Source of the DNA: Paratrimastix pyriformis
Taxonomy: Eukaryota; Preaxostyla; Paratrimastigidae
Direction: 5' to 3'
Assembly: GCA_027972325.1 (NCBI GenBank)
Contig: JAPMOS010000023.1
Location: forward strand, 320,001 to 384,000
Length of the DNA stretch: 64,000 nucleotides
Position numbers and translations under genes: made by a program. The notes under the pieces were generated by a model. The model was not told the DNA's origin. It did not search any database and saw only the letters and a program-made list of their open reading frames with translations. The number at the start of each line of letters is the position of its first letter. Position 1 is the stretch's first letter. Of this stretch, positions 7,703 through 63,837 are shown piece by piece.

Positions 7703-7776
7703 AATGCGACGAGATCTAAATACCCCATGGTCTAAAATTCCTGCGTGTCCGGGGGTCAGGGGGTTATTCGTTATCC

Positions 7777-7795
7777 TTCCTTTTTTTTTTTTTTC
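7777..7795 (+). repeat. poly-T run between the two LINEs
   Basis: A T run sits at the junction of the two head-to-head LINE fragments, between two copies of GTTATCCTTCC (about 7765 and 7838). It may be the tail of a third minus-strand retrocopy or a plain homopolymer. Confidence 0.5.
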
Positions 7796-7879
7796 AAACC
7801 CAGCCCAGCAACCGAAATTACCAGGCAGGTGCAGGCGTTATCCTTCCCCCCGGTTCGCGGGGTGGGCACAAGAACCAGA

Positions 7880-27300: not shown

Positions 27301-27482
27301 TCGCCATCAGACCGGTACTCCTCAGGGATCGCAATCATGACCTCGACAATTTTTGGGATGGAAATCCCAAATTTACCTGCGATCTGCTTGAAGATCGGCT
27401 TGACATCGATATTTTCGTGCTTTTCAAGCTTTGATATCATGGTGGCCACAATTTGAGAGATGGCGACAACTCGGGTCGCCAT
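24365..27482 (-). CDS. ELP3: Elongator complex catalytic subunit ELP3
   Basis: ELP3 is the radical-SAM/acetyltransferase subunit that makes the cm5U-type modification at wobble uridine 34 of tRNAs. The start (CAT 27480-27482) gives [37 protein letters not shown] (the 4Fe-4S cysteine cluster), [89 protein letters not shown] and [24 protein letters not shown] cover the radical-SAM part. SIVRELH...[32 protein letters not shown] and [25 protein letters not shown] cover the GNAT domain. About 65 low-complexity residues (from [12 protein letters not shown] to EQWRP) are inserted between the two halves, where other species have a short loop. Introns begin GTCTGA and GTCCGC, several with expanded repeats. 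It is divergent from XPD. Confidence 0.95.
26458..26562 (+). repeat. 15-bp minisatellite in an ELP3 intron
   Basis: Six near-identical tandem units of GGGGAGATGCCCNCAGGA type lie inside an intron of ELP3. Confidence 0.85.
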
Positions 27483-27607: not shown

Positions 27608-30600
27608 ATGAAATTTCAGATTGCTGGTCTCCCGGTCTTTTTCCCATATCCATTCATTTACCCTGAGCAACTGAAATACATGAAGGAGCTCAAAAAGGCG
27701 ATCGATGCGAAAGTCTGTGCTTCTCCTCTCCATCTTTCCAGTATGCCGCACCTTTCCGCAGGGGCACTGTCTTCTTGAAATGCCCACTGGGACAGGCAAG
27801 ACCCCTGCCCTCCTTTCGCTGATCATGTCCCATCAGCAGCACGTCGACGCCGTCCCGGCACCGCTCACCACCGACGGGCCAGCGCCCAGGACATTCCCTC
27901 GCCTGATTTACCTCTCGCGCACCGTCCCCGAGGTCGTCAAAGTTCTGACGGAGGTCAAGCGGACGATCTCCTGCCTGCAGCACTACGGGGCCCTCAAGCG
28001 GCCGCTGGTGTGCCTGGGGCTGAGCTCGCGGGCCAACCTGTGCATCAACCAGAAGGTCTCCGTCGTGCGGCCCTTCGCTCGGCACGCTCACCTCTCGGCC
28101 GTGACGCGTGACCCGCCCCATGCAGGTGGTCAACAGCCCCACGGTGCGGGACACGGACAGCGCCTGCCGGGACCTGACGGCCTCCTGGGTGCGGACCAAG
28201 GCCCACCTGGAGCCCGACATCGAGACGTGCCCCTTCTTCGAGGTCCGCTCCCTCGTCGCCCGTCCCCCTGTCCGACCATCGACCAACCCATGACCGTCCG
28301 CCCCTTGATCACCGTGCGCTCCTCGTGCTGCTGCTGTTGTTGTTGTTGTTGTTGCTGCTGCTTCGGCGGTTGTTGTCCTGGCGGCGACTAGGAGTTCGAC
28401 AAGCACGGGACCGAGCTGCAGCTCCCGCCGGGCGTCTACAACCTGGATGACCTCCGCGAGACCGGGTCCGCCCCCTGCCCATCGATATGGCCGACCGCAC
28501 CCCCCATCGGCTGCCTGCGCACGCGCCTCCTGACCCGCGCCCGCCGTCCCTTTTTTTGGCTCGGCCCCGTGGCTGTGCTGTGGTCGGCTCCGTCTCTGTG
28601 GGCAGGCGCCAGCAAGGGCTGTGCCCATACTACCTGGCCCGGCGGGCCATCCAGTACGCGGACGTGGTGGTGTGCTGCTACCCGTACGTGCTCGACCCCA
28701 AGATCAGCGCCATCGTGGGCCTGGCCCCGCGCGCGGGCGACATTGTGATCTTCGACGAGGCCCATAACATCGGTCCGCATCCCGCCCCGCCCTGCGCCTG
28801 CCCCGCCCCGCCCCCGCCCCCGCCCCCGCCCCCAGGTCGTCCAGGACCCAATCGCCTTTCATCCCCGAGGTGTCCCCCGCTCACCGTCCCCCTGTGCCTC
28901 TCCTGGCCTCCCGTCCCGCTGGGGGCAGACGAGAGCTGCATCGAGTGCTTCTCTGTGCACGTCAACCGGGCCATGGTGGACGCCTGCATGGGCAACCTGC
29001 ACACCCTCTCGCAGGAGATCCAGCGGTCTGCAGCCCCGCCCATCCCGCCACCCTCCCTCCCCCCCGGCGCCGATCCTTCCCGCCCCCGCCGGCCCGCCCG
29101 TCCTCACGGCGCCTCGCTCTCGTGGCTGTCGGGTGGGTGGGTGTGTGGGGCCCGCCTGCAGGGCGAAGAACACCGACGCGCGGAAGCTGGAGCAGGAATA
29201 CCAGAGGATGGTCACCGGTCCGCCTCCCGCCAGCCTCTGGTGGTGGCGCTGAGGGTCGGGTGGGCCCCCAATCTCCACGCTCCCGCCACACGGGCGGCCT
29301 CGTCTTGGAAGAAGGGTCATCATCGTGGGTTGGGGCGGTGGTGATGGGGCCGGGGGCGGCACGATGGGCAGAGATCGCCCAGCACTGGGCCGGCCGGGGC
29401 GGCGAGGAGCTGCTGGGCAACCCCGGTCCGCCTGCCTCCCCCCGTCATGCCCCCCCCCCCCCCCCCCCCCCCTGCCCTGTTTGCTCACGAAGCCTCCTTC
29501 CGGCCCACCCGTGGGCAGCCCTGACGGGGGACATCATCCGGGAGGCCGTCCCGGGCAGCATCCGCAAGGCCGAACATTTCCTGGGCTTCCTCAAGCGCTT
29601 CCTCGAGTACATCAGGGTCCGCCGGCCGCCCCGCCAGGCTGTCCCTGGATTCATATGGCCGGCCTTTTCGTCCCTCGACCCCCTCATCACTTCCCTCCCC
29701 TCGGCCTCTGCTGGCCCCCACCACGGTCCTTGGGGATGGGCAGCTGCGGCTGAACTCGGACGAGGCCGTCCACGAGAGCCCGCTGGCCTTCCGGCACCAC
29801 CTCTACCAGACCACCCAGATCTCGGACAAGCCCCTCCGGTCCGCCAGCCCCACCCACCCCCTCCTCGATGGCTGCCCTGCCCTGCCCTGCCCTGCCCTGC
29901 CCTGCCCTGCCCTGCCCTGCCCTGCCCTGCCCTGCCCTGCCCTGCCCTGCCCTGCCCTGCCCTGCCCTGCCCTGCCCTGCCCTGCCCTGCCCTGCCCTGC
30001 CCTGGCGCCACCTGCCCGCTCCTCGATGGCAGCCTGCCCTGCCCTGCCCTGCCCTGCCCTGCCCTGCCCCTTGTGCCGGCATGCTCGGCCTGGGGGCTGA
30101 CTGACCACGGGGGGTTGTGACGGGGTGTGTGGCTGTGGCCCCAGCTTCCTGACGGACCGGCTGCAGTCGCTGCTGCGGACGCTGGAGCTGCCCAACATGG
30201 GCCAGTTCGCGCCCCTCCTCGAGGTGGCCAACCTGGGCGTCCTCCTGGGCACATACACAGAGGCCCGCCCCTCCCGCCCGCCCCTCCCGCCCGCCCCCTC
30301 GCCTCCCCTGCACCGGCCCCCTCAGGGCCACGAGTACCCTCTGGCCTCACAAGCCGGCGCTGGGCTGTGGCTGTGTTCTGTGGGCTGGGCTGGGCTGGGT
30401 GTGGGTCGGCTGGCTGCCCGGGGGGCCCGCGCCGGCTGGGATCGGGCGGACGGGACGGACAGGGCTTCTCGGTGCTGGTGGAGGTGGCCGAGGGGGCCCC
30501 CGTCCCGGCCGACGGCCCGACCCCGGCAGGCAGCACGGCAGGGGGCGAGGGCCCCGCTGCGGCCGCGAGCGCCCCGCCGGCCCCGCCGCCACCCGCGCCC

Positions 30601-32876
30601 TCGGCCAAGGGCCTCTTCTTCAACCGGCCCATCCTCCACTTCTGGTCGGCTGCCCCGCCCCGCTACCACAGCACCACGCAGGCATCATCATCGCCGTCAT
30701 CACCACAACCACCACAACCACATCATCAGCTTCTGCCACCGCCACCGTCCTCACCGTCCTCATCCATCCTCACCGTCATCAACGTCACTCATTTTCTCAT
30801 CACGGCCCCCCCTCTGTCTACACTGGGCAGCTGCCACGAGGCCTCGCTGGCCCTGGGGCCGGTCTTCGGGGCGGCCGACACTGTGGTCATCACCAGCGGG
30901 ACCCTGTCGCCCCTGGGGATGTACCCCAAGATCCTCAACTTCGCCCCGGCCGTGGCCCTCTCCCTGCCCATGTCCCTCGCCCGGGAGTGCGTCTGCCCCC
31001 TGGTCGGTCGCCCCGCCCCCACGCTCCCCATATGGCCCCATGGACATATGGCCCCATGGACATATGGCCCCATGGACATATGGCCCCATGGACATATGGC
31101 CCCATGGACATATGGCCCCATGGACATATGGCCCCATGGGCATCTGTGGGCATCTGGGCATGAGCATGAACATATGGGCATATGGGCATATGGGCATATG
31201 GGCATATGGGCATATGGGCATGGTTTCATGGCGGATGGGCATGGTTTCATGGCGGATGGGCATGGCATGCTCGTGGGGCCCGGCAGGTTGTCACCCGGGG
31301 AGCCGACCAGGTGCCCCTCAGCTCCAAGGTCTCTCGCCCCGCCCCTTGCGTGCCCCTCCCATGTCCCCCATGCCACCGGTGCCACCACCACCGGTCCGCA
31401 GGCCATCGCCACAGCCAGCCCAATTACTGACGCCTTGGCATGCCTCCCTTGGTGGCGGCCGGCGGGTCCCCTTTCGCCCCCGGTGTGCAGTTCGATGCCC
31501 GGGGGGACCACGCCGTGGTGCGCAACTACGGGGCGCTGCTGGTGGACCTGTGCTCGGTCACCCCCGACGGGCTGGTGGCCTTCTTCCCCTCGTACAAGGT
31601 CCGCCGCCCCCTGCCGCCCCACCCCTGCAGCCCGTTGCGACGGACTCCCCGCCCGCTGTGGGGTTGTTGGGCTGGCCGGTGCGGCTGGTGCGGCTGTGGT
31701 GATGTGTTTGGGTACGTGGCTGTGGCTGTGGCTGTGGCTGTGGCTGTGGCTGTGGCTGTGGCTGTGGCTGTGGCTGTGGCTGTGGCTGTGGCTGGAAATG
31801 CGGCGGTGATGGGGCTGCGGGGCCGTGCCTGTGCCTGACTGGAGATCTGTGACTGTGCCCGACTGGAAATGTGCCTGTGCCTGTGCCTGTGCCTGACTGG
31901 AAATGTGCCTGTGCCTGTGCCTGTGCCTGACTGGAAATGTGCCTGTGATGGCGTGGGTTGTGCCTGCGTGTGGGTGGGGGGTGCAGTACCTGGGGGACAT
32001 GGTGGCCCGGTGGGAGGAGATCCACCCATACCCATACCCATGGCGGGCTGTGTGTCTATGGTGGGCGGGTGGGGTGCAGTACCTGGGGACATGGTGGCCC
32101 GGTGGGAGGAGATCGGCATCTTCGCCAAGGTGCTGCAGCACAAGCTGCTCTTCTTCGAGACGCCCGACCCCATGGAGACCTCCCTCGCCCTGGCCAACTA
32201 CAGGAAGGTCACACACCCCTCCCTCGCCCTCACCCCTACCACGCCCCGACCCGGCATCCTCGCCCCCCTCCTCTTCCTCTCATCCTCCACCTCCTGGCCA
32301 CGCTTCATCCTCTTCTTTGGGATGCGTGCGGTTTGTGGGGCTGGGCAGGCGGTTTTCTCTGTGTGGCGCGGGGCAGGTCCTCCCCACCTCCCTCCTCCTC
32401 CTCCTCCTCCTCCTCCCCCTCCCCCCCGATTCCCGTCTATGCCTCGGACCAGCCCGTCATCATTCGTCGCATCACCATCATGGGACGGGTGGCGGGTGGC
32501 GGGACGAGGCAGGTCTCGGAGGGCATCGACTTCGAGGGCCCCACGGCCGGTGTGTGGTCATGGTCGGGGTGCCCTTTGTCTACACCGAGCCTCATCCTCA
32601 AGGCCCGCCCCCATGCCTCGTGCCCCATGCCCCCAGCTCCCACCACCCGCCCGCCCGCCAGCCCAATCCACTGCCCCCCGGGGCTCACCTGGCGCACCCG
32701 TCGTGGGCCCTGGCCTGGGGCTGCAGGCGCGGCTGGACTACCTCCGACTGCGGCACGGGGTCAAGGAGGCCGAGTTCCTGGTCTTCGACGCCATGCGGGC
32801 GGCCGCCCAGTGCATGGGGCGCGTCCTCCGGTCCAAGAGCGACTACGGGCTGATGGTCTTCGCAGACAAGGTCGCC

Positions 32877-32907
<31 letters not shown>

Positions 32908-33558
32908 ACACACGCCGCCGCCATCCCCGCCCACGCCCACTTCTCTGTCCGTGTTCTGTTGCCGATCATCCGGTACGTGGACCTGTTGGGGCGGCGTCGT
33001 GGGCTGGGCAGCGATTCTCGGCTGCGGACAAGCGGAGCAAGCTGCCCCAGTGGCTGGGCGAGCACCTGCGCGAGGGCCGGGTCAACATCGGCACCGACAC
33101 GGCCAAGGCCCTGGCCGCCCACTACTTCCGCGAGATGGCCCAGCCCATCCCCTGGGTCCGCCCTCCCCCTTCCCCCCCCCCCCCCCCCCCCCCCCCCCCG
33201 CCCAGCCCCTTCCCTCGCCCTACACGGGCCTCGCCATAACAGCGGGCTTCCCCTTCCCATGGCATCCCGACCCCACCACGGCCTGTCTGGGCTCCCCTTT
33301 CTGGGCGCGCCCATCGGCCGGCTGGCTGCCCAGGAGGACCAGCTGGGGACGGCCCTGCTGACCGAGAGCCACGTGAGCGCCATCGAGGCGCGCGACCGGG
33401 CCGATGCGCGCCAGGCCGACCAGGCGGCTGCCCAGCGGCGGGCCGCCGAGGAGCAGGCAGCCCGGAGGCGCCAGGCCGAGGAGGAGCGGCGCCAGGCGGC
33501 CGAGCTGGCCCTCCGCACGGGCGAGGCCCTCACCCGGGAGGACCTCGAGAACGCATGA
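27608..33558 (+). CDS. ERCC2: TFIIH helicase XPD/ERCC2 (Rad3)
   Basis: The 5'-3' DNA helicase of TFIIH, acting in transcription initiation and nucleotide excision repair. Start ATG 27608 ([21 protein letters not shown]). A 49-nt intron (27713-27761, GTCTGT...GCAG) splits DAK from [14 protein letters not shown] (Walker A). Four Fe-S cysteines are present: NLC, DSAC, ETC and GLC. Then come VIFDEAHNI (DEAH box), [56 protein letters not shown] (motif V), [12 protein letters not shown] and [14 protein letters not shown] (motif VI). The C-terminal ~60 residues are an Arg/Ala/Glu-rich coiled-coil tail. Introns begin mostly GTCCGC with CAG or TAG acceptors, and many are filled with CCCTG, GGCTGT and 16-bp arrays. 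Hand-counted GC rises from 25/60 in the first 20 codons to 49/60 near the stop (33481-33540). Confidence 0.95.
29872..30066 (+). repeat. (CCCTG)n pentanucleotide tract in an XPD intron
   Basis: Two blocks of pure CCCTG units (29872-30005 and 30033-30066), each preceded by the same TCCTCGATGG word, which suggests that the flank was duplicated with the repeat. Confidence 0.9.
31029..31230 (+). repeat. 16-bp then 8-bp minisatellite in an XPD intron
   Basis: About seven units of CATATGGCCCCATGGA (31029-31140) are followed by about seven units of GGCATATG (31165-31222). The second array is built from a piece of the first unit's NdeI-like CATATG core. Confidence 0.9.
31715..31796 (+). repeat. (GGCTGT)n hexanucleotide array in an XPD intron
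   Basis: About thirteen GGCTGT units, followed at 31830-31945 by degenerate units containing CTGACTGGAAATGTGCCTG. Confidence 0.9.
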
Positions 33559-33762
33559 GCGACCGCAATCCCCGTCTCCGTCTTCATCCCCCCCCCCCCC
33601 CCCCCCCCCCCGAAACGCCAGGCCGCGCCTCCTCCATCCAGGACGATGGGTGGGTGGCGATCGTGGCACTGTTGTTATTTGAGGGGCGGCGGCAACCGCC
33701 CTCCCCTCGGGCAGGGCAGCCCACAAGGGGCGGCTCACAGCCGGCCGACGAACACGAACGAA

Positions 33763-33802
<40 letters not shown>

Positions 33803-34125
33803 CGGCACCAAGGGGAACCCCGAAGAGACGAGGAAGGAAGGGATCGGAGAGGAGAGGGCGAGCCCCCGCCAAGAGGAAGCCCACAAAAACCCCACGAGGG
33901 GGGCACGGCGAGGGGCACGAGGGGAGGGGATGAGGGATGAGGGGATGAGATGGGGGGGACACACCCCGAGAACGGCACAGCAACGACGAGCGGACGGCAC
34001 CCCGCAACGCGCCAGAGCGAACTGCCCACCCAACGAATGCGGCAGCAACCGACGCGGGGAGCGGCCGCCTGGCTGTGCCAGGACCCGAGCAGGTGGCCCC
34101 AGGCCAGAGCAGGCGGATCCCGAGC
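33559..34125. other. convergent intergenic spacer with poly-C and (ACGC)n
   Basis: This lies between the 3' ends of XPD and the hydrolase gene. It contains a poly-C run (about 33588-33611) and an ACGC tetranucleotide array (about 33762-33804). No gene. Confidence 0.7.
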
Positions 34126-36442
34126 TTACCAGTACCCGAGCAGGTGGCTCCAGATGCGCTGGAAGACCCACTCGGGCCGCTCGCTCATCAGGTAGTGGTC
34201 GCAGTCGGGGCAGTTGTACCAGGCCGAGTGGTAGGCTACAGGCAGGCAGTCCTCGGTGCACAGGGTCACGTCGGCCGCCGGGCCCGCGGGGCCGACCAGG
34301 GGTGTGCCCGCCTGGAGGCACATATCGTAGGCGGCCATGGTGCGCACGTAGGGGTCGCTGGCGTTCTTGGCGGAGAGCAGCAGGACGGGGACGGTCTCCT
34401 TGAGGCGGTGGCAGCAGTGCAGCCCGTCGGGCCCGCAGGCCATCTCCATGACCTTCTGGTACCACTGCTGGCTGAAGGTGCGCAGCTCGCGCGAGTAGGC
34501 GTGGCTGTGCTTGTCGGTGGCGTAGAGGTTGGCCACCACCAGGCCCGCGTTGCCCACCAGGGGGGTGGGGAAGTCCGCCCAGTAGGCGAAGACCGGCCGC
34601 CAGAAGCCGAAGACCCCCAGGAAGGGGCCCCACCGCGAGGCCATAAGCTCCAGCAGCGGGTACTGGTCCAGCGAGTCTGCGGGCGGGGAGAGAGGGAAGG
34701 GCAACGTCAGTTTCAGAAGTGGGGACTGGTCCAGCGAGTCTGCAGGCGGGGAGAGGGGCAGGCGGGGAGAGGGGCAGCTTGGCAGCGGGGGTCCTGGTCC
34801 CGCAAATCTCTGCAGGGGCGAGAGGCGGCTGTCCGCTTCGGGCGGCCAGCTTGGGATGGAGAGGGCAGACCCACCCGGCCGGTGAGGTTGCCGTGCGCGC
34901 GCAGCCAGGGCTCGTCCAGGATATATGGGCCGGCCGTGTCCATCAGGGCCAAACCCTGCCCAGAGGCCAGAGGCCAGGGGGGGGGCCACGCGGAGGTGAG
35001 CGCCAAGCACAACAACCACACGGAACATGGGGCGCGGGCGGTGGGGGACAGGCATGGACATACGGGCGGGGGCGGACCACGACCCGGTCGGGGTTGCGGA
35101 TGGCGACGATCCGGGTGGCGATGCCAGCGATACTATGGCCCAACATGATGATGGGCCGGGGGCTGGTCTGGTTGCCCACCTTGGACACGAAGTAGGGCTG
35201 CCCGGGGGCCATCCACAGCAGGGGAAGGGCGAAGGCGAGGGCAGGAGAGCGCGGAGGAAGGAGCGGAAAATCAGCGCCAGAGATGACGAAGGGTCAGGAG
35301 AGTGAGGGCAGGAGAGTGAGGAAGATCGAGCGGAAAATCAGCACCAGCGAACGAAGACAGCGCCAATGCGGTGCGGGTGCGAACCGAGAGCCTGGGGTCG
35401 ACCAGGACGGCCTTGAGGAGGCCCTCCACGGCCTCGACGTCGGACTCGGGGCCGAAGTTGTGCACCCCGGGGGCACCCTCGAGTGCCCAGGGCATGGGCG
35501 ACCAGCCGAGGCCCGTCCGGTCGAAGAAGCAGGCCGTCGTCCGCTGGCTGGTCCGCCGCACGAGGGGCAGGAAGGTCGCCCCCGGGGACCCGTGGCCCGC
35601 ATCCATCAGCACCAGGGGAAGGCGTCCCGTGGACTGGGTGGACCGGGTCTTGTCCTCGCAGTACACGTGCAGCGAGACCCCCGTGCCCGTGTCGACGATG
35701 AACCCTGCGGGGGGGTGGGGGGGGGGGGGGGGGGGGGCAAAGGGCACGTGAACGGGTGGGTCAGACATGGGGGGATGGATCGGCCAGACCGGGCGCCGGG
35801 AACCAGATCGCAGTCGCCGCCTGCTGGACGTCCTGCACGGTGATCGCGTACATGGCCTACACCAGATACAGCACCACCGGGGTGAGAATGACGGAAAGCC
35901 CCTAAAGTGGAGGGACTGCAGACGGCGACTCCGATCAAAGGAATCAGGAAGCATGCTATCGTGCACGCGATGGCACAGCCAGGCCGGCCGCGCAGCGGAG
36001 CGGCGCGTCTCTTCGTCGTCGGGGCAGAGGCGGGCTCTTCAACTTCCAGAACCAGGGGCCGGTTGTCAATGGGGAGCTCTGCCGTAGGATCGGCCTCACG
36101 ACGGGGGTATCGAAATCGCAGGTACACAAGAGAGAGAGAAGAAAGGGCAACCAGAAACGCCGAGGTCACAGCACTAGGGACATCGGTATCGATGATGTCG
36201 CAAATGAAGCAGATCGCCGCGGGAACAATATATATGATGGCGACTAAAATGAAAAATACTTTGACAACGCGGGTAGCGCGGAACAGGGGAACCAAATACA
36301 GGAAGGAAAAACAAAAAGAGATGAAAAAATAAAGCGAGGCACGATATCGTTCGACACCGGCGAAAAAAGCCCCCAACAATAATGTCAGAAAGCACTCGGC
36401 GCCGAACGAAAGGAGGACAACAGTGAGAGCCTTACCAGACAT
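34126..36442 (-). CDS. multi-TM alpha/beta-hydrolase
   Basis: Start CAT 36440-36442 (MSGKALTVV). The N-terminal ~130 residues hold four or more hydrophobic segments (for example LTLLLGAFFAGV, ASLYFFISFCFSFLYLVPLF, VFFILVAIIYIVPAAICFI and SAFLVALSSLSLVYL), then a basic loop and another TM (AIACTIACFLIPLIGVAV). The lumenal or cytosolic part is an alpha/beta-hydrolase: LPLVLMDAGHGSPGATFLPL (oxyanion strand), FDRTGLGWSP, IIMLGHSIAGI (nucleophile elbow G-H-S-I-A-G), ALMDTAGPY, VPVLLLSAKNASDPYV, and a C-terminal LPVAYHSAWYNCPDCDHYLM with a His in the expected place. The substrate cannot be predicted. Introns begin GTCCGC or GTCTG in most places. An in-frame ATG at 36617-36619 would add ~60 residues but would run through a TTGAA pentamer array, so I prefer the downstream ATG. 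Convergent with XPD. Confidence 0.75.
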
Positions 36443-37192
36443 CTCCAAACCACCGCAAAAAGCTAAAAGCAGTGTCAAATCCCCTCGGCACTGCTGCTTT
36501 GAATTGAATTGAATTGAATTGAATTGAACCAAACTCAACCGAAACCATCCGGACGAACGGAGAAAGACAAACAAGCCAAAAAAGCCGCACCAGTAACAGT
36601 AACAACAAAAAGCGGTCATAAAAGCCAATTATCTCTCTTCGTTCGATGGCCTCGGAGAGTGCACAACACGGCCGATACACCCCTCCCCGCAAGCGGGGAG
36701 CAAGCACAACGGTCCGGCGGCCCGGCATACCCGAGCGGCAAAGCCCAATGTCAAGTACTCGGCCCAGCGCAGAATCACCTCGGAAAGGTCTCGGAACCAG
36801 GGAGGCCGAGCTCGTACACGCGCGATAACACGACCCAAACAGAGGTCAAGGCCAAAGCCGTCACTTCGCACAAAATCGAGATCAGATCCCGAACTTGCAG
36901 GAAGGCAAACAGCTTCCAGGTGGCCCTGCACCAGCCATACCAAGTCTCAACATGAGCGGTCTCTCGGCCGCAGCCGTATCGCGGTTTGGTGTGGAGAGGC
37001 AAAAATGCATCTCGAGTCAGCCGCACTGTCGACCGTCAGGTTCCCCATTACCTCAGCCAACTGACGCTGGCATCTTGGAGGCGGTCGGGGCACATCAAAT
37101 GCGGCAAATTGCGTCGAGAGTGAGCGGTCCGGCGTCTCACATCATCCTCACCCGGGGAACAGCACTGCTGCTGATTTTGCAGGCAGTTTTTG
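36443..37192. other. 750-bp region without an assigned gene
   Basis: It includes a TTGAA/TTCAA pentamer array (about 36500-36527). Minus-strand frames at 36629-36943 and 36775-37026 encode hydrophobic segments (FLQVRDLISILCEVTALALT and FLLLLLLVRLFWLVCLS) that might be 5' exons of the multi-TM hydrolase, but I could not join them with a convincing intron. No CGGAA motif as in the shorter divergent gaps. Confidence 0.4.
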
Positions 37193-38696
37193 ATGGAAGA
37201 ACTGGTGGAGGGCGAAAGATGTGTGTTTGAAGAAGATAATGAACACGAATTCAAGATTGCCCCAGCCACAAATCTCATCACACAGTATGCGACCATTACT
37301 TTGAACGCCTTCCTCAATTCCAACGGGGGCACGCTCTATTTCGGGATTGACAATAAAGGGCTCGTAAAGGGCATACCTTGCAATTTCGTCTCGCGAGATA
37401 CTTTCCGACTCACAAGTCTGTGATCCATCACTACGATTATGCTTCATCTCTCCATGCAGTTGATACTGTCATCCGGGGGATTGTCCCTCAGATTGATCCT
37501 CGCTCAGTTTCTTTACACTACTACCCCGTGCGATTGAAGAACCTCCGGTCGCTGCCCCATTTTGTTCTGGCCGTCCAAATCCAGCGTGGGATGGCCCCGG
37601 TCTATTTCACCCCCAAACGGGAGGCCTACGTCCGTTACAGCGCGAGCAATTACCCGCTTTCTGTTGAAGTCTGTGCCTCCCCCTGAACTGCCCCGCAACC
37701 TCCCTCCATCTTCACCAGCTAATCAACGAGCGGCTTCGGCTCTACCACGGCCTCCAGCCCTCCATGCCCGATCAGATCCTCTCGCCCTCGGAGTCCGGCA
37801 ATATTCTCTCGCAGCTGCGTGCCATCCAGTCCCTTGTGCAGAATCTCATCGCTCGCCTCGAGTCTCGGGCGCCCGAGCCACCAAGTTCAGAAACTGCTGT
37901 TGAACTGCATCCGCATCCACACACATACCCCGAACCGCCCGAGTCCCAGGTGACGCATCGCCAGAAACGGATTCGGCCCGACCCAAGCGTTGTGGAAGAG
38001 GCTGACGAGGAGGGCTTACTACCTACTGGCCCCATCATACCCGATGGGGGAAACTCTCGCTCGAGCAGCGAGACACACCACTGCGCGCTCTGCCGGCGGG
38101 ATTTCACCGATGCCAACAGCTTGCAGCAGCACAAAGAAAGTTGCGGACACAAACGGCGAGTGCTGACCCACGGTGGCCCTGGTCTGCCCCCCAATCCGTG
38201 CCCTCGCTCACTCTCCGTGCTCTGCCTAGGGGGTGCGCCAACCCTACCACCGGCTGAGCTGAAAGCGGCACTGCTGGCCTTGGAATTGGATCAGGCCACC
38301 AAAAAGAAATCTCAGCTTCCGGCGGGCACAGCTCATCCCCCAACCAAAACGCCCACTCACGTTCCTGCCGCCGCTCCGATTTCCCACGTGGCCCACACCA
38401 AGGACCCCATCAAACCTATCCCGCCTCCCGTCCCGCTCGTCGACTTGGAGACTGCATGGGGATGCCCCACATGCGGCCACAACTTTCGCACCCGTCGGGC
38501 GTATCAGGCACACCGGAGGGAGGCCCACATCTCTGCCCGGGGCGGGTCCTTGCCCGGGATTTTACTGGTGCACTGCCCACACTGCCAGAAATTCCTTCAA
38601 AAGGACAAACTCCGAAAGCACATCACCAAAGTTCATAAGTCACGACAAGTTGTTGTGCTTCCGGAGAAACGAAGGCGTGCAAGTGCCGGAGATTGA
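37193..38696 (+). CDS. AlbA_2 (Schlafen-type) domain fused to C2H2 zinc fingers
   Basis: The start ATG at 37193 opens MEELVEGERCVFEEDNEHEFK. EHEFK...ITLNAFLNSNGGTLYFGIDNKGLVKG is the first lobe of an AlbA_2 domain. A 44-nt intron (37416-37459, GTCTGT...GCAG) joins it to IDTVIRGIVPQIDP...YPVRL and QIQRGMAPVYFTPKREAYVRYSAS, the second lobe. A 50-nt intron (37669-37718, GTCTGT...CCAG) leads to LINERLRLYHGLQPS and a leucine-rich helix (ILSQLRAIQSLVQNLIARLE). The C-terminal part has one C2HH-like finger (CALCRRDFTDANSLQQHKES) and two C2H2 fingers (CPTCGHNFRTRRAYQAH and CPHCQKFLQKDKLRKH...H). AlbA_2 domains occur in Schlafen tRNA endonucleases and in bacterial transcription factors; the acidic E...E...D positions seem present here. 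A third intron (about 38159-38229) is possible but in frame. Confidence 0.8.
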
Positions 38697-38864
38697 TTGG
38701 ATGCGACGACGCATTTATTAAGACTTGATTTTTTTTCCCCCGACAAATTTGCTCGTTGGGTCTCGTTGGCTTTTTGAGAGTTATCGTGATATGATGCGGG
38801 GGACATCCGCTCGCGAGGAATTTTCCGCTATAACCTGTTTTGCCCCGGTTGCGTTGTGAAAAAC

Positions 38865-41046
38865 ATGCCCAAGGTCATTGACATCATTCGCCAGCGGCTC
38901 GCGGCTCAGCAGCCATTCTACTCGTTCGAGTTCTTCCCGTCTGTTTTCCCTTTGGGTTTGGGGCGATCTTTTGGGTTTTCCAACTTGATCCCGGTTCCCC
39001 CTTCCATGATCGTCACCATGCTCACCTTTTTAATCTGGATTTTTTTGTGTGTGTGTTCTGATTGCGATTGTGCTCATCTAGCCCCAAGACCGATGAGCAA
39101 ACTCAGGCTGTTTACAATCGTATGGACAGCCTGAAGCAGCTGTGCCCCTGCTACTGCGATGTCACTTTCGGTGCAGGTTTGGCTCCTATTTGTGGTGTTT
39201 TTTCCCAACGCTTTGCCTCGGCCGGTGTGCAGGTGGGTCGACCACTGCCCGGTCTCTGCAGGTTGTGGAGACTTTCCAGAACTATCATGGCATGGAGACT
39301 ATGCTTCACCTGACCTGCACCAATATGAACGAGGAGAGCATCAGCCGCCTTCTCGAGGAGGTGAAGTCCCGCCATCTCCAAAACATCCTTGCTCTTCGTG
39401 GTGGTCTGTCGTGGGCGTTTATTCCCGTCTGACCATTGAGACCATTTGTTGATGTGGGTGTGCAGATCCCCCAGAAGGCCAGACCCACTTCGTTGCCACC
39501 GACGCCCGGTTCCAGTATGCCGTTGATCTTGTTCGGTTCATTCGTGAGAAGCACGGCGATTACTTCAACATTGCTGTTGCTGGATACCCCGAAAAGCACC
39601 TTGAGGCAGCCTCCTACGAGGAGGATCTGAAGCACCTGAAGGAAAAGATCGATGCTGGTGCCGACATGATCGTGACCCAGATGTGCTTCTCCCCTCCCGT
39701 CTTTGAGAAGTTCGTCAACGATTGTCGCGCTCTGGGCATCCAGTGCCCCATCATCCCGGGCATTCTGCTCTTCGGCAACTACGCGGGCGTCCATCGGATG
39801 GCCACCCTGAGCGGGGTCGCCATCCCCGAGAAGATGGAGGAGCGCCTGCTGCAGATCAAGGACGACAACGCCGCCGTGTCGGCCTACGCGGTCGATCTGG
39901 CCGTCGAGATGGTGCAGTACTGCATGGCGGTCCGTCCCCGACCCTGCCGACACAACCACCGCCCACAGAGGTTATACTGCCGATTCTGCCCATGGGGAGC
40001 CCCTTGGCCACGGGACGGTGATTGACCTTCTTGTTGGTGCCTCTTCTCTCTCCCCCCGGGTAGCGCGGCATGCTGGGGTTCCACTTCTACGTGCTCAACC
40101 TGGAGAAGGCCGTCAAGACGACCCTGACCCGGCTCGGGTGGCCCATCATCAACCAGGCCTCCCGCACGCTGCCCTTCCTTGAGCCCGGCCAGACCTTCCA
40201 GGCGGCCCTGGGCGAGGCCCGCTTCGAGATGCCCCTGCTCAACGCGCTGGTGCCCGCCTACCGGATGGCCGCCGCCCGGGGCGACCCCGAGTTCCGCAAG
40301 CAGGTCGACCGGCGCACCATCTGGGGGGCCGCCGTCGCCGGCCCTGCCGACGTCAACGGGGTCTTCGGGGCCTACTACGAGGGCAAGATCCACCGGCTGC
40401 CCTGGTCGGAGGACCCCGTGCCCCGCACGCTGGCCTCCTGCCGGGCCGACCTGGCCGACCTGGCCAAGCACGGCGTCTGGGCGGTGCACGCCCAGAACGG
40501 GCTGGTCCAGGTGCCCTCGACCGACCCCATCCACGGCTGGGGCGGCCCCGACGGGCTGGTCTCCCAGCTGGCGGGCCTGGAGTTCTTCATGCCCAAGGCC
40601 AAGTTCGCCCCCTTCATGGCCGCCGTCAACCCGGCCGCTGCCCTCGTCCACGCCGTCCACATCTCGGTCCGCTCTTGGCCCCCCACCCGCTCTCCCCGCC
40701 TCCCGCCCCCGGCGCCGATGTCCTCATCGCCATGTTTCTTCTCTGCTTGCAGGAGGGCACCTTCACCAACGTGACGACCGGCGCCGAGGTCATTCCGACG
40801 GCCTGGGGCCAGTGGGGTGAGGAGAAGCGCCTGGCCACGGTCATGGACGCGCCTCGCTTCAACGCCGCCGCCATCGAGGCCTTCGCCCTGTGGCTCTCCA
40901 AGTGGGCCACCCTCTACGCCGAGGGCAGCTCCTCCCGGCAGGCCCTCGAGGCCATCCAGCAGGACGTGGTCTTCGTGAGCATGCTGGCCCCCCAGCCCCA
41001 GACCACCCTGACCTCCCTCATTGCCATCCTCAAGCTCCACTACTAG
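38865..41046 (+). CDS. MTHFR: methylenetetrahydrofolate reductase (eukaryotic two-domain form)
   Basis: MTHFR reduces 5,10-methylene-THF to 5-methyl-THF for methionine synthesis (FAD and NAD(P)H). Start ATG 38865 (MPKVIDIIRQRLA). Splicing the 143-nt intron 38939-39081 (GTCTGT...CTAG) restores YSFEFFPPKTDEQTQ, the conserved FFPPK. A further intron (about 39177-39232) restores DVTFGAGGSTTARS, and 39404-39465 (GTCTGT...GCAG) restores ALRGGDPPEGQ. Then IAVAGYPEKH, ADMIVTQMCF, CPIIPGILLFGNY, MLGFHFYVLN complete the TIM barrel. The last exons give the eukaryote-specific C-terminal SAM-responsive region, with VNGVFGAYYEGKIHRLPWSE, WGGPDGLVSQLAGLEFFMPK and EAFALWLSKWATLYAEGSSSRQALE. Later introns begin GTCCGT (39930) and GTCCGC. 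TTTTCCGC (GCGGAAAA on the other strand) lies about 40 bp upstream of the start. Confidence 0.95.
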
Positions 41047-41348
41047 ACGCCTCGCTCGACCCCCCCGGCTTTCCCCGTGTCCCTAATTTATTCGCCGCCC
41101 CGTATTTGGTGATCGTTTTGGGCTCAACCTTTTTTTTTAACGCCCTTCTTCGGCTCGGCTTTTGTGTTTTCTCTCAATGTACCAAAGAAATCGTGCCATA
41201 GCCCTCGTGACAGTGCATCCTCGTAGGTTCACTAAAGGCTTCTTCAAGGAATATCACCAAGTCGATTTTCATGCCAACCGACCGATTACGCTCAGTTTTG
41301 ACAGTTTGACGCGGCGCCATTCCGAGCGGAGCACTCGGCTCTTCGCTA
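41047..41348. promoter_or_regulatory. intergenic region between MTHFR and the surface-protein gene
   Basis: 302 bp of lower GC with T runs. It holds the MTHFR 3' end and the promoter of the downstream gene. An ATTCCG word is at about 41317. Confidence 0.4.
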
Positions 41349-46742: not shown

Positions 46743-47075
46743 GCCGCCGTTGGCCACCCAGCGGCTTTTCCTTTTCTCTTCCCCGAGCCGCCTCTCCATC
46801 CCAACCTTATTGCTTGCCCGTGGCCGCGCCGTCCCACCTGTACGTGATCGTGTGTCCGTCCTTCGCGGAGGCGCGGTGCTGCAACGGTGCCATGCTTATT
46901 CGGTGTCATGGTCCAATATCTCCTCCTCCTCCCTCCTCCCTCCTCCTTCCTCCTCATCCTCATCCTCCTCCTCTTCGTGGCGTATTGACCATCCCCTGCT
47001 TGTTCTCGTGCCTCTCTCAGTGTCGCTTGTGGAAGGAGGGCCCTTTGGTCGCGAATATCGACTGTATGTACGTTG
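46743..47075. other. convergent intergenic spacer
   Basis: It includes a CTC/CAT-rich run (about 46920-46978). No gene. Confidence 0.5.
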
Positions 47076-48011: not shown

Positions 48012-48160
48012 ACCACCCGGAAACACGACTGTAGCGGTGGGCTGCCGGCATTCAGAGCGAGTCGAACCAGTACACTCTCGACTATCCCGATTCCTCGTCG
48101 CGCCACGGTTTCTGGGCGAACTCAGGTTTGCTTTGGACGAAACCCAGAACGCTTGCGACT
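48012..48160. promoter_or_regulatory. 149-bp divergent gap (RING-CH ligase / VPS3) with CCGGAAA
   Basis: CCGGAAA lies at 48017-48023, 5 bp from the RING-CH start codon. Confidence 0.5.
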
Positions 48161-56767
<8,607 letters not shown>

Positions 56768-57256
56768 GGCCCCTCCCTCCTCCTCCCTCCTCCATCCCCC
56801 CTCCCCCCCCCCCTCCATCCCCCCCCTCCCCCCATCTCCTCACCCCGATCGATGTGCCCCACGGCCGCGGATGCCTTCTTTTCGGCCCTCCCTTTCCAAG
56901 ACCAAGAAGACCGCCCCCTCGGGCCGCCACGACACGAACCGGGTGGAGGATGCAAAGAGCCCTGGGCATGGGCAATGTGCCGCGAAGGACGGGCGGGCGC
57001 CTCCTCACCGGGTACTGGTTGCCACGGGGCCGCGACGGAGGGCCTGGCGCCACTGGGCACGGCAAAGGCGAAGAGGAACGATGTTCAAAACAAAAAGCGA
57101 GGGAGGGAGCGAGAGTTGGAGGGATGGAGCCAGGGGTGGGGGACCTGAGAAGGGTGGGGGGTGGGGGGCCTGAGAAGGGTGGGGGGCGGCCAGGAGAGCC
57201 GGCGCCGAAAATGCGAACAGCAGGCAGCAGCACGGGCAACAACCATCGTCGTGCAT
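56768..57256. other. convergent intergenic spacer
   Basis: C-rich then G-rich sequence, with a short duplication of GCCTGAGAAGGGTGGGGGG near 57145-57190. No gene. Confidence 0.5.
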
Positions 57257-58492
57257 TCACAGCATCTCCACGGTGAGGCCCAGCGTGTACCGGTCGAGCT
57301 GCTGGCTGAGCCAGCTCCACCCGTCAGGTGGAGCCTGCCGTGGAGGTGCTACTGGCGCTGCTGGAGCCTCGGGGGGTGCTGCCTGGGGGAGGTCGGGGTC
57401 GGGGTCAGGCTCTGCAGCCTCCTCTGGGGGGCGCGCCTCCTCGCCGGTCGAGTCGTCCGCGGCTGCTGGGACGGCAGCAGCGGTGGCCCCCCAGCCCTCG
57501 TATGGCGGCGAAGGGGGCGCCTTGAGAGCCCCGAGGGCCGGGCCGGTCTGCGGGGCCCAGTTCCACGCAGACTCCGTGGGACGGTGCGGCAGGCTCCCCA
57601 ATAACCCAAGGATTGTTCGCCGGAGGGCCAGGCGATCGCCGACCAACGTGGGCGCCCAGACGAGGGCCAGGGCAAACCACTGGATCGAGGGGAGGGCGTC
57701 TCGGACGGATTCCCCAGGGGGCGCCAGGGCCGAGGCCGCCCAGAGGGAGAGTGCGGTGAGCGCCCCGGTGAGATGGACCATCAGATGAGCGAGCGCCACG
57801 ACAACAAGAAGGGTGTTTTCGTCCGTCCAGCCGCGGTGGGGATGCTCCCCAAACAGAAACGTGACAAGGGCCCGCTTCCCAGGGCCCACAAGCCCGTCAA
57901 AGAGCTCGCCCTCTTCATGGGGGCGGCCTTCAGGGTCGCAAGGGCGGGGCAGCCCGATTTCCGAGGAAAATCCATCGTCCCGAATCTCGTTGCGAACGAC
58001 CACAATGAGCGGCAGGGCAGCGACCACCAGAGGCATGAGCTGGTTGAAGGAGGACCACCACTGGCTTGCGTCTCCCGGGTCAGAGCTGCCCATAATCGAA
58101 CATAGACTTGTGTAGCCGATAACTTCGGTTGCCAGGAGGACACAGGAAAGCGTGGGCGACCGGAGGCCGCCGAACAGGGTCCACCTAAATTGGTTGTTCG
58201 AGGGTGATGAAACCAATGATCGATCGGTGGTCAGATCCGACCTGAGAAAATCGATGGGCCATCGGCGGTCCCAAAATGCCAGGATAGAGATAGCGGGGAC
58301 AGTAAGCAAGAGGCCGCGCCGAAAGAAGGAGATCAGGGAAGGGAGGAAAGCAGATTCGTCGACTTGCAGAAGGCACACCAAGACCGCCACAAGAAACACA
58401 GCCGAAATGGAGACTGCTGTACAAATGATACCAATAATCGGGGAGAATGATATGCTGTCTCCTTTCGGCTGGTTCATTTGGGCCTTTGTCAT
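57257..58492 (-). CDS. orphan multi-pass membrane protein with Pro/Ala-rich tail
   Basis: I do not recognise a family. One uninterrupted 411-codon frame (396 if the second ATG, CAT 58475-58477, is used). Six or so hydrophobic segments include ISFSPIIGIICTAVSISAVF, GLLLTVPAISILAFW, LMPLVVAALPLIVVV, TLLVVVALAHLMVHLTGALT and IQWFALALVWAPTLV. The last ~110 residues are acidic and rich in Pro and Ala. Composition shifts from balanced at the start to GC-rich in the tail. Divergent from the Nudix gene. It lacks introns, unlike most neighbours. Confidence 0.7.
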   Translation of the reverse strand: MTKAQMNQPKGDSISFSPIIGIICTAVSISAVFLVAVLVCLLQVDESAFLPSLISFFRRGLLLTVPAISILAFWDRRWPIDFLRSDLTTDRSLVSSPSNNQFRWTLFGGLRSPTLSCVLLATEVIGYTSLCSIMGSSDPGDASQWWSSFNQLMPLVVAALPLIVVVRNEIRDDGFSSEIGLPRPCDPEGRPHEEGELFDGLVGPGKRALVTFLFGEHPHRGWTDENTLLVVVALAHLMVHLTGALTALSLWAASALAPPGESVRDALPSIQWFALALVWAPTLVGDRLALRRTILGLLGSLPHRPTESAWNWAPQTGPALGALKAPPSPPYEGWGATAAAVPAAADDSTGEEARPPEEAAEPDPDPDLPQAAPPEAPAAPVAPPRQAPPDGWSWLSQQLDRYTLGLTVEML

Positions 58493-58554
58493 TCAAAAAT
58501 CCCCTGCCTGCGCATTCGACCGGGTGTTTTCTCGCTTTTTCTGCTTGTGGTGCC
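58493..58554. promoter_or_regulatory. 62-bp divergent gap (orphan TM protein / Nudix)
   Basis: A very short gap between opposing start codons, T-rich on the plus strand. It lacks the CGGAA word present in the other four divergent gaps. Confidence 0.5.
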
Positions 58555-59629
58555 ATGACGACCGTGCAGATTGCTGGAAAGGCCGTTCCTGTGACGTCCG
58601 ACGTGAGCGCTGAACTGACCCAACTCGCTATCAACTCCAGCGTTTTCCGCGATTGGGCAAACGGTCTTGAGCCCAGGTTCCGCATCGATGCGGTCCGCAT
58701 TCAGTCCGTCGATTTGTTCGGGAGCAGAGTCGGCTTCGTCAAATGCGTTGCGACTGCCTTCGTGGATAACGAGGAGCATAAGATTCCCGGGATTCTCTTC
58801 CTTCGCGGCGGTGCCGTGGGCATTCTTTTTGAGATCCATTGCGAGGGCGCTCTGTACAGTCTTGTGGTTCGGCAGCCTCGGCTTCCCGTTGGGCGGGCGC
58901 TGTTCCCTGAAATTCCCGCTGGTTTGCGCATTTGTTTTTGTGGTCGTCATCAGTCTCCCAGGCATGCTCGATGGGTCGGGTGCGTTCAAGGGGATGGCTG
59001 CCAAAGAGATCGAGGAAGGTTCGTCTTGGGGGTCGTTTCCGCCCTGTCCGCTCATGTCACCTGGCACCCGCAGAGACGGGCATCACCATCAACGCCGCCC
59101 AGCTGGTCGACCTGACCGAGCTGGCCTACGGGGACCAGTACAAGGGCATGTACCCCTCTGTTGGTCTGGCTCCCCTCCCCCTCCCTGCCCACTTTTCCTC
59201 ATCGCCCGCCGGCTCCGCGGCTCGGGCCCTCAGGTGCGTGCGACGAGTTCATGAAACTCTTCCTCTTCCGCGAGGTCCGTGGCGTCCTCTCCCCGTCCCG
59301 TCCCGATCCCCAGCAGCCTTCTTTCCCTCCATCGCGAGCACCGGATCACCTTCCCTCCTCCCCGGCCGCCTGCTCCCCCCTGGGCGGGCCAGGCCATGAC
59401 CCGGGCCCAGCTGGACGGGCTGCGGGGCCACCTGAGCGGGCTGCGGGAGCACGGCGAGTACATCACGGTCGATATCGTGCCCTTCGAGGACCTCTGGCGG
59501 GTCGCCCCCGACGCCAAGACCCTCTCGGCCCTCTGCCTCCGCGACCGGCTCCACGCCACCGGGCGCCTCTGCCTGCCCGCCGTCGCCCCCGCCCCCGCCC
59601 CCGCCCCCGCCCCCGCCCCCGCCCACTAG
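58555..59629 (+). CDS. Nudix ADP-sugar diphosphatase (plant NUDX14 type)
   Basis: It should hydrolyse ADP-ribose or ADP-glucose-like nucleotide sugars. Start ATG 58555 (MTTVQIAGKAVPV). PEIPAGMLDGSGAFKGMAAKEIEEETGI is the Nudix box in the variant of plant AtNUDX14; it forms only after a 39-nt intron (GTTTGC...CCAG) and a second (GTTCGT...GCAG) are removed. Then YPSVG joins ACDEFMKLFLFRE across an intron beginning GTCTGG, followed by GLREHGEYITVDIVPFEDLW and DAKTLSALCLRDRL, again as in NUDX14 rather than animal NUDT5. The C-terminus ends in an Ala-Pro dipeptide run and TAG. Four short introns keep frame. Confidence 0.85.
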
Positions 59630-59760
59630 GCCTCCGGCCGGGCCTCCAAAAAGACCTCCTTCCTTTCGTTTGTGAAATAATATGTCTGGATCGAAGACCG
59701 CACGGGAGTCGGGCTGAGGTGGGAACTCCCGGGGGGGTTGAAGTGGCTACCGGTCGAAGG

Positions 59761-61847
59761 ATGGGGGGTTTCGTGACGCCTGCGCGGCTCCTTTTCTGTG
59801 CGCTCGTCCTCTTTGGTGTGACCAGGGCCGGTTTGATTTCGGTCCAAATGCTGGCCCGACACGGTGATCGGGAGCCACAATTGCAGATGCCGCTTGATCC
59901 AACGAACTGGACGGCACTCGGTGAGCTTACGCCCATAGGAATGAATCAACACTACAATCTCGGTCGGGAGGTGGTCGGGAGGTACGGTGAAATCATCCCT
60001 CGACACTTTTCTGATCGGGAGATCTGTCTGTTGTTTCTCGACCCCGCGTCCTTTTCTCAGCTCGTCTTCTCCAGACATTCGCTCGACCAACTACAACCGT
60101 GCCCTCATGAGCGCCTACGTCTGCGCTTGTTTGTAGTTTGGGGGCGATCGATCTGACATACCCCGCAACAGAGCCAGCTGCAAGGGATCTTTCCGCCCGG
60201 GTCGGGTCCCTCCATTGAAGGCACGACCACTCCGGCGCTGCCCGATTCCGTCCAGGTCCGACCGCAGCAGCAGCGTCTGATCTGCTTCACCGCCGGTTCT
60301 TGCCCCCAGCCGGTCCCGATCGTGACGGTGCCCATCGCGGCGGAGTACCTCCTGCGGCCCTTCGAGATCTGCCCGAGCGCCCTGGGGCTCCTCCAGGGGC
60401 TGGTCTTCGAGCGGGCCCCCTTCGCCTCCATGTGGGCCGCCCAGCAGCCCCTCTGCCGGACCCTGGAGGGCCTGACTGGGCTCGGGCCGGGCGCGCTGGC
60501 GGACCCGTTCACCCTGACCATGGTGGCCGACACCTTCCGCGTGGCCCGGGCCAAGGGGCGCCCGCTGCCCGCGGGGGTCACCGATGACATCTACAACCGG
60601 ACGGTGACCCTGGGGGAGGCCGTCTTCGTGGCCTGCATGCCCCTCGAGCCCCGCTGGTTCCAGCTGGCCATGGGCCCCTTCGCCGACGAGGTCCCCGCAC
60701 CCACCCTTCCTCCACACCTGTACCCACCGCTGGTGGCCTCCTCTCGGGCCCGGCACATCCTGTGGCCATCTAGGTTCTTATGTCTGCCCGTCTGCTTCCC
60801 CGTCATGTCTGCCGGCCCTGGGCCCTTGCGGTGTCTGCGTTGGGGTGCCCGGTCGGGCCCGGGCAGCTCCTGTCGAATATGGAGGCGGACCTGGCCGGCT
60901 CGGCCGCGCGGCGCCGGTACCGGCTGTACAGCGCCCACGACGACACCATCATGGCCTACATGGCGGCCGTGGGGCAGCCCCTCACCGGTCCGCACCCGCC
61001 CCCTCCGACCGGCGCCACCAGGTGATCGTCCGATCGGGCCGCCTCCCCGCCCCGAACCACCGACCGCCCTCAATACCAGTACGCTCCCCATCCCTCCCCC
61101 CAACCGCCCCACACGACACGGCGGGCACCAGAGTGGCTCCCCTACGCCGCCAATGTCGTCTGGGAGCTCCACGGCCCCGACACAAACCATTCGGTCCGCG
61201 CCCCGCCAGTCGGCCATCCCGCCCAGCCAGCCGCCAGCCAGCCAACCAGCCAGCATCCCCCATCCAGCCAGCCGCCAGCCAGCCAGCCAGCCAGCCATCC
61301 CATCCCAGCCAGCCCCCATCCCAGCCAGCCCTTCACCGATCTTTTGGTCTGTCCGTTTGGGTCGTCTGGCTGGCCAGGAGGCCTTCGTGCGGATCCTGTA
61401 CAACCCGGGGCCCTCCCTGGCGGCCCCCCGGCCCGTGCCGCACAGGGGCTGCGCAGGCAACGAGTGCACCCTCACCCAGTTCCACCAGTCTGGCGCACCC
61501 CTCCTCTCCCCTCCCCTCCCGCGGTTGCCCTTCCTCCCCAGGCTGCCCGGCCTGCCCGGCCTGCCCCGTGCGTTCATCGCCGGGTGGCGGCTGGGGTGCT
61601 GTGCATGGGCATGTGCAGGGCGCTGCGGGCCATCGCGGCTGGCCCCGGCTGGCTGGGCGACTTGTGCGGGGTGGAGGGGGCGCCCGGCGCAGGCAGCACC
61701 TTTGGGGCGGGCGCCCTGGCTGCGACCATCATCGAGGCGGCCGCCCTGGGGGCCGTCGCCCTCTTGAGCGCAGTCGCCTGGCGCGCTCGGCGCACCTTCA
61801 GTCCGTCCGCCGCGCCGCGCCACGCCTGGGGCCGGGCGGAGTTTTAG
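59761..61847 (+). CDS. histidine acid phosphatase, lysosomal type, membrane anchored
   Basis: A secretory or lysosomal phosphomonoesterase of the histidine phosphatase clan. Start ATG 59761. A signal peptide (RLLFCALVLFGVTRAGLISV) precedes QMLARHGDREP, the RHG catalytic box. Two short introns, 60026-60074 (GTCTGT...CCAG) and 60119-60171 (GTCTGC...ACAG), restore YIRSTNYNRALMSAY, the conserved R-S-T segment. Downstream, SNMEADLAG and RRRYRLYSAHDDTIMAYMAAV carry the HD catalytic motif. VVWELHGPDTN and FVRILYNPG are also family-typical. A C-terminal helix (GALAATIIEAAALGAVALLSAVAW) and a basic tail give a type I anchor. One intron (about 61180-61340) is an AGCC/CAGC-rich array. Confidence 0.85.

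Positions 61848-63788: not shown

Positions 63789-63837
<49 letters not shown>

Follow-up and report, generated by a model that had tools for sequence, protein, structure and literature searches.

Matching changes in the U1 snRNA 5′ end and in the 5′ splice sites of Paratrimastix pyriformis

Introduction

In nearly all eukaryotes, introns are recognized through pairing of a GURAGU 5′ splice site (donor) with the canonical U1 small nuclear RNA (snRNA), whose 5′ end ranks with the most conserved RNA stretches of eukaryotes and carries at bases 5-6 two uridines that are pseudouridines in human and yeast. Here we deal with a stretch of 64,000 nucleotides, called the window throughout (positions 320001-384000 of contig C146, JAPMOS010000023.1), from the 56.06 Mb, 495-contig genome assembly of Paratrimastix pyriformis, a free-living protist of a genus placed in Preaxostyla, Metamonada. 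A first-pass annotation of the window had proposed that its introns share an unusual donor, GTCYGY, and that such a donor implies that either the U1 5′ end has changed or recognition depends mainly on other factors such as U6 or U5. The question that this locus raises is therefore what reads these donors. We placed introns by protein alignment and searched the genome for snRNA genes, and together the data indicate that the U1:5′ splice-site pairing code of P. pyriformis has very probably been rewritten on both sides, with the introns removed by the major (U2-type) spliceosome.

Results

Protein-anchored donors carry C at +3

Introns were placed with a purpose-built spliced protein-to-DNA aligner in which GT..AG ends were compulsory and no preference was given at any other intron position. 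Human MTHFR, XPD, ELP3 and MSH2 were aligned to the window, and human Prp8, taken from Protein Data Bank chains, to contig C456; errors in the templates would reduce scores and would not produce a common C at +3. In these five genes 49 introns were placed, and the alignment was repeated for every one of them with the called donor forbidden; an intron was termed strict when this masking cost at least 8 half-bits and at least 3 of 8 columns were conserved on each flank, which retained 38 introns (ELP3 11, MSH2 2, MTHFR 3, XPD 13 and Prp8 9). The results showed C at +3 in all 38 strict donors, along with G at +5 in 35 and G at -1 in 34, neither of which was imposed by the aligner. Position +4 was occupied by C (24), T (9), G (4) and A (1), and position +6 by C (23), T (12), A (2) and G (1); GTCYGY described 30 of the 38 donors and GTRAG none. 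Besides the GT..AG ends, which were compulsory, the introns share the -1 G and the +5 G of the U2 type, and they lack the +3 purine and +4 A of that type.

When exon pieces from 11 genes were joined and used in a protein search, seven proteins matched, and identity or name assigns four of these to P. pyriformis. One, P0121 (EukProt label GAFH01001351.1.p2), agrees with the MTHFR exons at all 528 residues across four introns, whose donors are listed in Table 1; we read its label as that of a P. pyriformis transcript assembly product, and as a protein it fixes the junctions except for shifts that keep the protein the same. Public annotated proteins cover 6 introns in the acid phosphatase gene, 8 in RluA (530 of 578 residues aligned) and 20 in XPD, and every one of these donors begins with GTC. 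The annotated XPD protein (P0001) aligns to the window over 876 residues without mismatch after intron removal, the next match to the spliced XPD model being a P. eleionoma protein that is 56% identical. The published annotation was made with a predictor retrained on curated models, with intron hints from RNA-seq and with mapped transcripts (PMC10703272). When strict, transcript-derived and annotated donors were pooled (n = 62, with one XPD junction entering twice, at 31003 from the human template and at 30991 from the annotation, and with an annotated share that depends on the species-trained predictor), +3 was C in 61 and T in one, +5 was G in 54 and -1 was G in 50; GTCYGY accounted for 42, GTRAG for none, and A stood at +4 once. 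C at +3 was present in 98% of 60 called donors vs. 34% of 949 further GTs in the six genes that hold these donors (p~1e-21), and G at +5 in 87% vs. 28% (p~3e-19).

These data bear out the first-pass annotation at seven of its nine numbered donors, which lie at protein-fixed edges (XPD 27713; MTHFR 38939, 39404 and 39930; acid phosphatase 60026 and 60119; RluA 16816), and at the other two, 37416 and 37669 in an AlbA_2 gene, the claimed hexamer is present as letters only. The further donors that it proposed without positions, in SPFH, EXD1, VPS3 and the first gene, are putative. The near absence of GTRAGT-type donors held in both donor sets, and the claim of pyrimidines at +3 and +4 held fully for +3 and mostly for +4. 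The statement that only G at +5 is kept did not survive, as C at +3 is better conserved than any other intronic base that follows GT.

Signals were also sought without proteins. Across 209 kb, made up of the window plus 33 further loci, GTs at which the coding signal stops were compared with GTs at which it continues. GTCCGT and GTCCGC, which headed the hexamer ranking and were picked for the test after it was seen, made up 13 of 48 GTs at coding collapse vs. 2 of 353 where coding continues; GTCTGT and GTCTGC were not enriched (2/48 vs. 3/353), and GTAAGT, GTGAGT and GTATGT were absent from both groups. Raw hexamer counts in the window are a weaker sign than aligned donors: on the plus strand GTCTGT occurs 35 times (11 expected), GTCCGC 67 (34) and GTCCGT 30 (16), on the minus strand all four GTCYGY forms are close to expected counts, GTAAGT occurs on neither strand (~2 expected on each), and GTGAGT occurs 8 times on the plus and 2 times on the minus strand (10 and 12 expected). 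At the other end of the introns, a branch-site signal was weak, with CTGAC in 8 of 62 intron ends vs. 2.2 in shuffles and CTAAC in none vs. 1.1.

An unusual donor could also arise from misplaced junctions or from introns of the minor (U12) spliceosome, whose donor motif is RTATCC. A U6atac gene exists in the genome, the public XPD model and the human template disagree at one donor (30991 vs. 31003), and among the 11 introns that failed the strict filter through weak flanks or low masking cost, six have a GTC donor and five have others (GTGTGT, GTGTTT, GTACCC, GTGACT and GTGCCC). Of these five, the MTHFR donor at 39195 moved to 39177 with the transcript-derived protein, the public XPD model has no donor at XPD 30334, 31849 or 32620, and the fifth is MSH2 63832. 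Against this explanation, the aligner is blind beyond GT..AG, every strict intron pays the masking cost, and GTCCGY was prominent in the protein-free comparison too. RTATCC is not among the called donor hexamers (only GT donors were allowed), and U12-type introns are ruled out by donor form despite the U6atac gene. We regard the probability of misplaced or minor-class junctions as practically negligible.

All U1 genes found are altered opposite +3 and +4

The Rfam U1 model (RF00003) matched eight places in the genome, each over model positions 1-166 of 166, that is, with the full-length fold of stem-loops I-IV (alignment inspected for one copy, L001), and these loci lie on eight contigs with dissimilar flanks. 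All eight genes start 5′-ATACAGACCTTG, the canonical start being ATACTTACCTG, and AUACAGACCUUG stands where canonical U1 has AUACUUACCUG; instead of the expected recognition sequence ACUUACCUG, all eight carry ACAGACCUU. Bases 5-6 are thus changed from UU to AG and base 11 from G to U, and in the cmscan alignment of one copy the model is departed from at positions 5, 6 and 11. A canonical U1 (AUACUUACC) was not found beside the changed copies with the Rfam model or by BLAST with the U1 body, which returned the same eight places and none further, and viral contigs gave no match to the changed 5′ end.

A canonical U1 might nevertheless be unassembled or unscored, with the eight changed genes serving some introns only. 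A parallel would be the diplonemid S. specki, in which a second U1 is reported, so that two U1 types occur together (PMC12621601). The 495-contig assembly is perhaps incomplete, and the Rfam search scored 41 of 992 first-look candidates. A canonical U1 should, however, outscore the eight on the Rfam model, the BLAST search pointed only to the same places, and the canonical GTRAG form has no representative among the strict donors. A hidden canonical U1 is in our judgment very improbable.

The other snRNAs are unchanged at their recognition sequences. U6 retains ACAGAGA (4 of 4 genes found), U5 retains GCCUUUUAC (7 of 7), and U2 retains GUAGUA in the eight copies read (nine full-length places and one partial place were found), and thus among the U1, U2, U5 and U6 copies read only U1 is altered. 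A promoter element, CCCATAA, precedes each of the eight U1 genes at -59 or -60 and each of the eight U2 copies read at -58 to -60. In the seven U5 genes it lies 70-72 bases upstream of a fixed internal point, and for the four U6 genes and U6atac its position is -65 or -66. A 50 kb sample, scanned on both strands, contained it once; it is common to the five snRNA types examined. Given that U2, U5 and U6 are canonical and that all five types share this element, the U1 copies look, by sequence, like functional, ordinary snRNA genes. The spacing of CCCATAA separates a U1/U2 group from a U6/U6atac group. The U6atac gene itself (G000:C445:22122-22254, L042) scored 46.6 bits against a cut-off of 33, and P. 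pyriformis probably retains a minor spliceosome; a U11 search gave no match, and the controls likewise gave none.

With respect to the first-pass annotation, its first alternative, a changed U1 5′ end, was upheld by the AG at bases 5-6 of all eight U1 genes, and the genome search that it had suggested for U1 and U6 located the alteration in U1, opposite +3 and +4, with the U6 ACAGAGA unaltered. Its second alternative, recognition by U6 or U5, is not needed for the C at +3.

The changed U1 fits the donors

In the canonical register, C8 of U1 stands against +1, A7 against +2, base 6 against +3, base 5 against +4, C4 against +5 and A3 against +6, and bases 5 and 6, which are changed, are those opposite +4 and +3. 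The perfect partner of the changed U1 (A5, G6) is CAAG/GUCUGU (the slash marks the exon-intron border), and GUCUGU is wholly complementary to it. When pairing in this register was scored for the 60 donors and 949 other GTs, the real U1 reached an area under the curve (AUC) of 0.918 and the canonical one reached 0.717; free duplex energy on the same sets gave 0.861 and 0.593, respectively. All 16 dinucleotides were tried at U1 bases 5-6, and the real AG ranked second. On the exon side, A at -3 is found in 30% of donors vs. 12% of other GTs, and C at -3, at 38% vs. 36%, is not enriched, which is in line with a uridine replacing G11 of U1.

A further explanation is that donors drifted to GTCYGY by base composition, that their recognition falls mainly to U5, U6 or proteins, and that the U1 change is incidental. 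Introns are 41% C, and +4 and +6 are partly background; the metamonads covered by one study have hardly any protein components of U1 (PMC6679479), and U1-C went undetected in P. pyriformis by exon-wise search. Drift, however, yields no invariant base, and the +3 C of donors stands far above its frequency at other GTs, a comparison that rules out compositional drift alone. U1 is altered exactly opposite the changed donor positions in every copy found, and recognition through a changed U5 or U6 is ruled out by the intact functional sequences of the copies read. An incidental U1 change is, on this evidence, quite improbable.

Several points weigh against a code rewritten on both sides. All strict introns belong to just five genes, located on two contigs, and the case is built from gene sequences for U1 and from protein alignments for the donors. 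All eight U1 genes score 50.8-60.2 bits, under the Rfam cut-off of 69.5, for which the changed 5′ end accounts in part, and the small share of first-look candidates that were scored counts here too. In the pooled donors +4 is C (33/62) more often than T (19/62), and a C there leaves A5 unpaired; because of this excess of C, a U1 with GG at bases 5-6 ranks first (AUC 0.932), ahead of the real AG. Finally, since introns are 41% C, the pyrimidine preference at +4 and +6 is in part background. With these points taken into account, rewriting on both sides remains the reading in which we have high confidence. That the code has been wholly replaced, with every U1 lacking UU at bases 5-6, the introns of the genome converged on +3 C and a largely orthogonal system as the outcome, we consider likely.

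Gene and intron features of the window and other loci

A selection of the supported introns is given in Table 1. Two of the conserved genes in it, ELP3 (24394-27312, minus strand) and MSH2 (63047-64000, minus strand, at the window edge), are additional to those of the first-pass annotation.

Table 1. Selected supported introns of the window and their donors. Coordinates are window positions; strict, human-template alignment past the filter; annotated, public annotated protein.
Gene	Coordinates	Strand	Donor	Support
RluA	16767..16816	-	GTCTGC	annotated (P0124)
ELP3	27258..27312	-	GTCTGA	human ELP3, strict
ELP3	27159..27205	-	GTCCGC	strict
ELP3	26917..26979	-	GTCCGT	strict
ELP3	26387..26570	-	GTCGGC	strict
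ELP3	26216..26288	-	GTCCGC	strict
ELP3	25742..25829	-	GTCCGC	strict
ELP3	25525..25620	-	GTCCGC	strict
ELP3	25132..25288	-	GTCCGC	strict
ELP3	24647..24824	-	GTCTGT	strict
ELP3	24394..24461	-	GTCTGC	strict
XPD	27713..27761	+	GTCTGT	human XPD, strict; annotated
XPD	28243..28391	+	GTCCGC	strict; annotated
XPD	28466..28605	+	GTCCGC	strict; annotated
XPD	28773..28928	+	GTCCGC	strict; annotated
XPD	29026..29161	+	GTCTGC	strict; annotated
XPD	29839..30144	+	GTCCGC	strict; annotated
XPD	32871..33011	+	GTCGCC (+5 not G)	strict; annotated
MTHFR intron 1	38939..39081	+	GTCTGT	human MTHFR, strict
MTHFR intron 2	39177..39232	+	GTTTGG (sole +3 T of the set)	P0121
MTHFR intron 3	39404..39465	+	GTCTGT	P0121; human template, strict
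MTHFR intron 4	39930..40063	+	GTCCGT	P0121; human template, strict
MTHFR intron 5	40667..40752	+	GTCCGC	P0121; donor also from human template
Acid phosphatase	60026..60074	+	GTCTGT	annotated (P0122)
Acid phosphatase	60119..60171	+	GTCTGC	annotated (P0122)
MSH2	63348..63482	-	GTCCGC	human MSH2, strict
MSH2	63047..63245	-	GTCCGC	strict

The window has a GC content of 55-72%, and stop-free in-frame introns look common in this GC-rich genome: in Prp8, one open frame of 1005 residues runs through three exons and both intervening introns (L043 ~4309-5826, C456:83309-84826). Unlike the intron-rich conserved genes, an annotated F-box gene of 826 residues (L040 6185-8662, on C388) is without introns. 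Inside an XPD intron lies a tandem repeat that in one frame reads as a stretch of 10 protein letters (window ~29850-30070), and RNase H and reverse transcriptase domains in neighboring frames at window 4848-7837 (minus strand) probably belong to a non-LTR retroelement.

Discussion

The pairing proposed here would work as follows, provided that the U1 genes are expressed and pair as their sequence suggests. The main U1 RNA would begin AUACAGACC; its G6 would pair with +3 C, its A5 with +4 U and its U11 with -3 A, while G+1, U+2, G+5 and G-1 would retain their canonical U1 partners and +4 C would be accepted as a mismatch to A5. Handover to U6 would need no change, because the ACA of U6 could pair with UGU at +4 to +6. 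A plausible route begins at a GUAUGU donor, as in the oxymonad Streblomastix, from which one intron change and two U1 changes would be enough. In the order that we infer, U1 U5 to A would first gain a pair with the pre-existing +4 U, and U1 U6 to G would then occur together with donor +3 A to C. Gene conversion, aided by GC-rich drift, may have spread the change across the U1 family.

Loss of U1-C may have eased this route. The U1-C profile PF06220 had one match in an exon-wise search, which an intron-split zinc finger would escape, and a search with human U1-C returned the PF06220 place and one weak match (E 0.6, with a stop inside). The PF06220-matching protein was rejected as U1-C since WBP4 fits it better (E 1.7e-11) than U1-C does (E 2.3e-6). 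Two LUC7-family genes are present (G000:C474:74550-75448 and C46:373670-375001) and are possible modifiers of donor choice. A METTL16-like gene was also detected (G000:C332:38824-39153, minus strand, L048), yet A stands at +4 in only one of the 62 donors. METTL16 is the U6 A43 methyltransferase; the identification rests on a protein match, related psilocybin synthases match too, and the METTL16 profile PF05971 also matches 5 of 14 controls, all prokaryotes.

Compared with the canonical system, the U1 body fold, the full-length model match, the register, the snRNA-type promoter, the GT..AG ends and canonical U2, U5 and U6 are all shared, and the differences are confined to U1 bases 5, 6 and 11 and to donors with +3 C and almost no +4 A. 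Changing U1 to restore use of a changed donor is known from laboratory suppressor U1 snRNAs, which are engineered for single introns, whereas the change in P. pyriformis is natural. Lineage-specific donors matched by the species' own U1 have a precedent in Yarrowia lipolytica, whose GTGAGT is the perfect complement of both its U1 RNAs (PMC2911113), which we take to differ at base 6; its +3 purine can, however, be read by canonical U1 through wobble, whereas P. pyriformis has a pyrimidine at +3 and substitutions at two neighboring U1 bases. The diplonemid S. specki also has a U1 gene with an altered 5′ end, in the form of a C run, but this second U1 coexists with a canonical one, and both pair comparably with the canonical donor (PMC12621601), whereas in P. 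pyriformis the searches yielded no canonical U1 and the donors, too, have changed. Streblomastix strix has GT-AG introns with GTATGT-like donors, with A, U and G at +3 to +5 as in yeast GUAUGU (PMC1501061), and on comparison of donors alone it shares +4 U and +5 G and differs in having A at +3. The U1 of Giardia starts with ACUUAC (PMC3510501). Larvacean tunicates have likewise abandoned the usual intron ends genome-wide, mostly for non-GT/AG introns, but their snRNAs are conserved, with m6A and U2AF changed (PMC13326754), whereas in P. pyriformis U1 itself is changed and GT..AG is kept. The passages of the P. pyriformis genome paper contain 'intron' twice and 'splic' once and do not discuss splice signals (PMC10703272), and in the literature covered, which left most subscription journals and bioRxiv outside its scope, we found no report of a genome with all U1 genes found and most donors changed together at +3 and +4. 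The mechanism is classical and the code is new.

A change of the U1 5′ end should perturb all introns at once. With donors and U1 both altered, the intron-rich P. pyriformis is a natural experiment on how a code of this kind gets rewritten. It also tests the need for the UU/pseudouridine pair and the relative weight of U1 and of U5/U6 in dictating the donor, and it bears on the link between U6 methylation and +4 A, given a METTL16-like gene in a genome whose donors have nearly lost that base. In practical terms, the finding is a caution for gene predictors that assume GTRAGT, and it offers a natural, largely orthogonal U1/donor pair. If the reading is true, the introns of P. pyriformis would be poor substrates for canonical U1, and its own U1 would favor sites that are ignored elsewhere.

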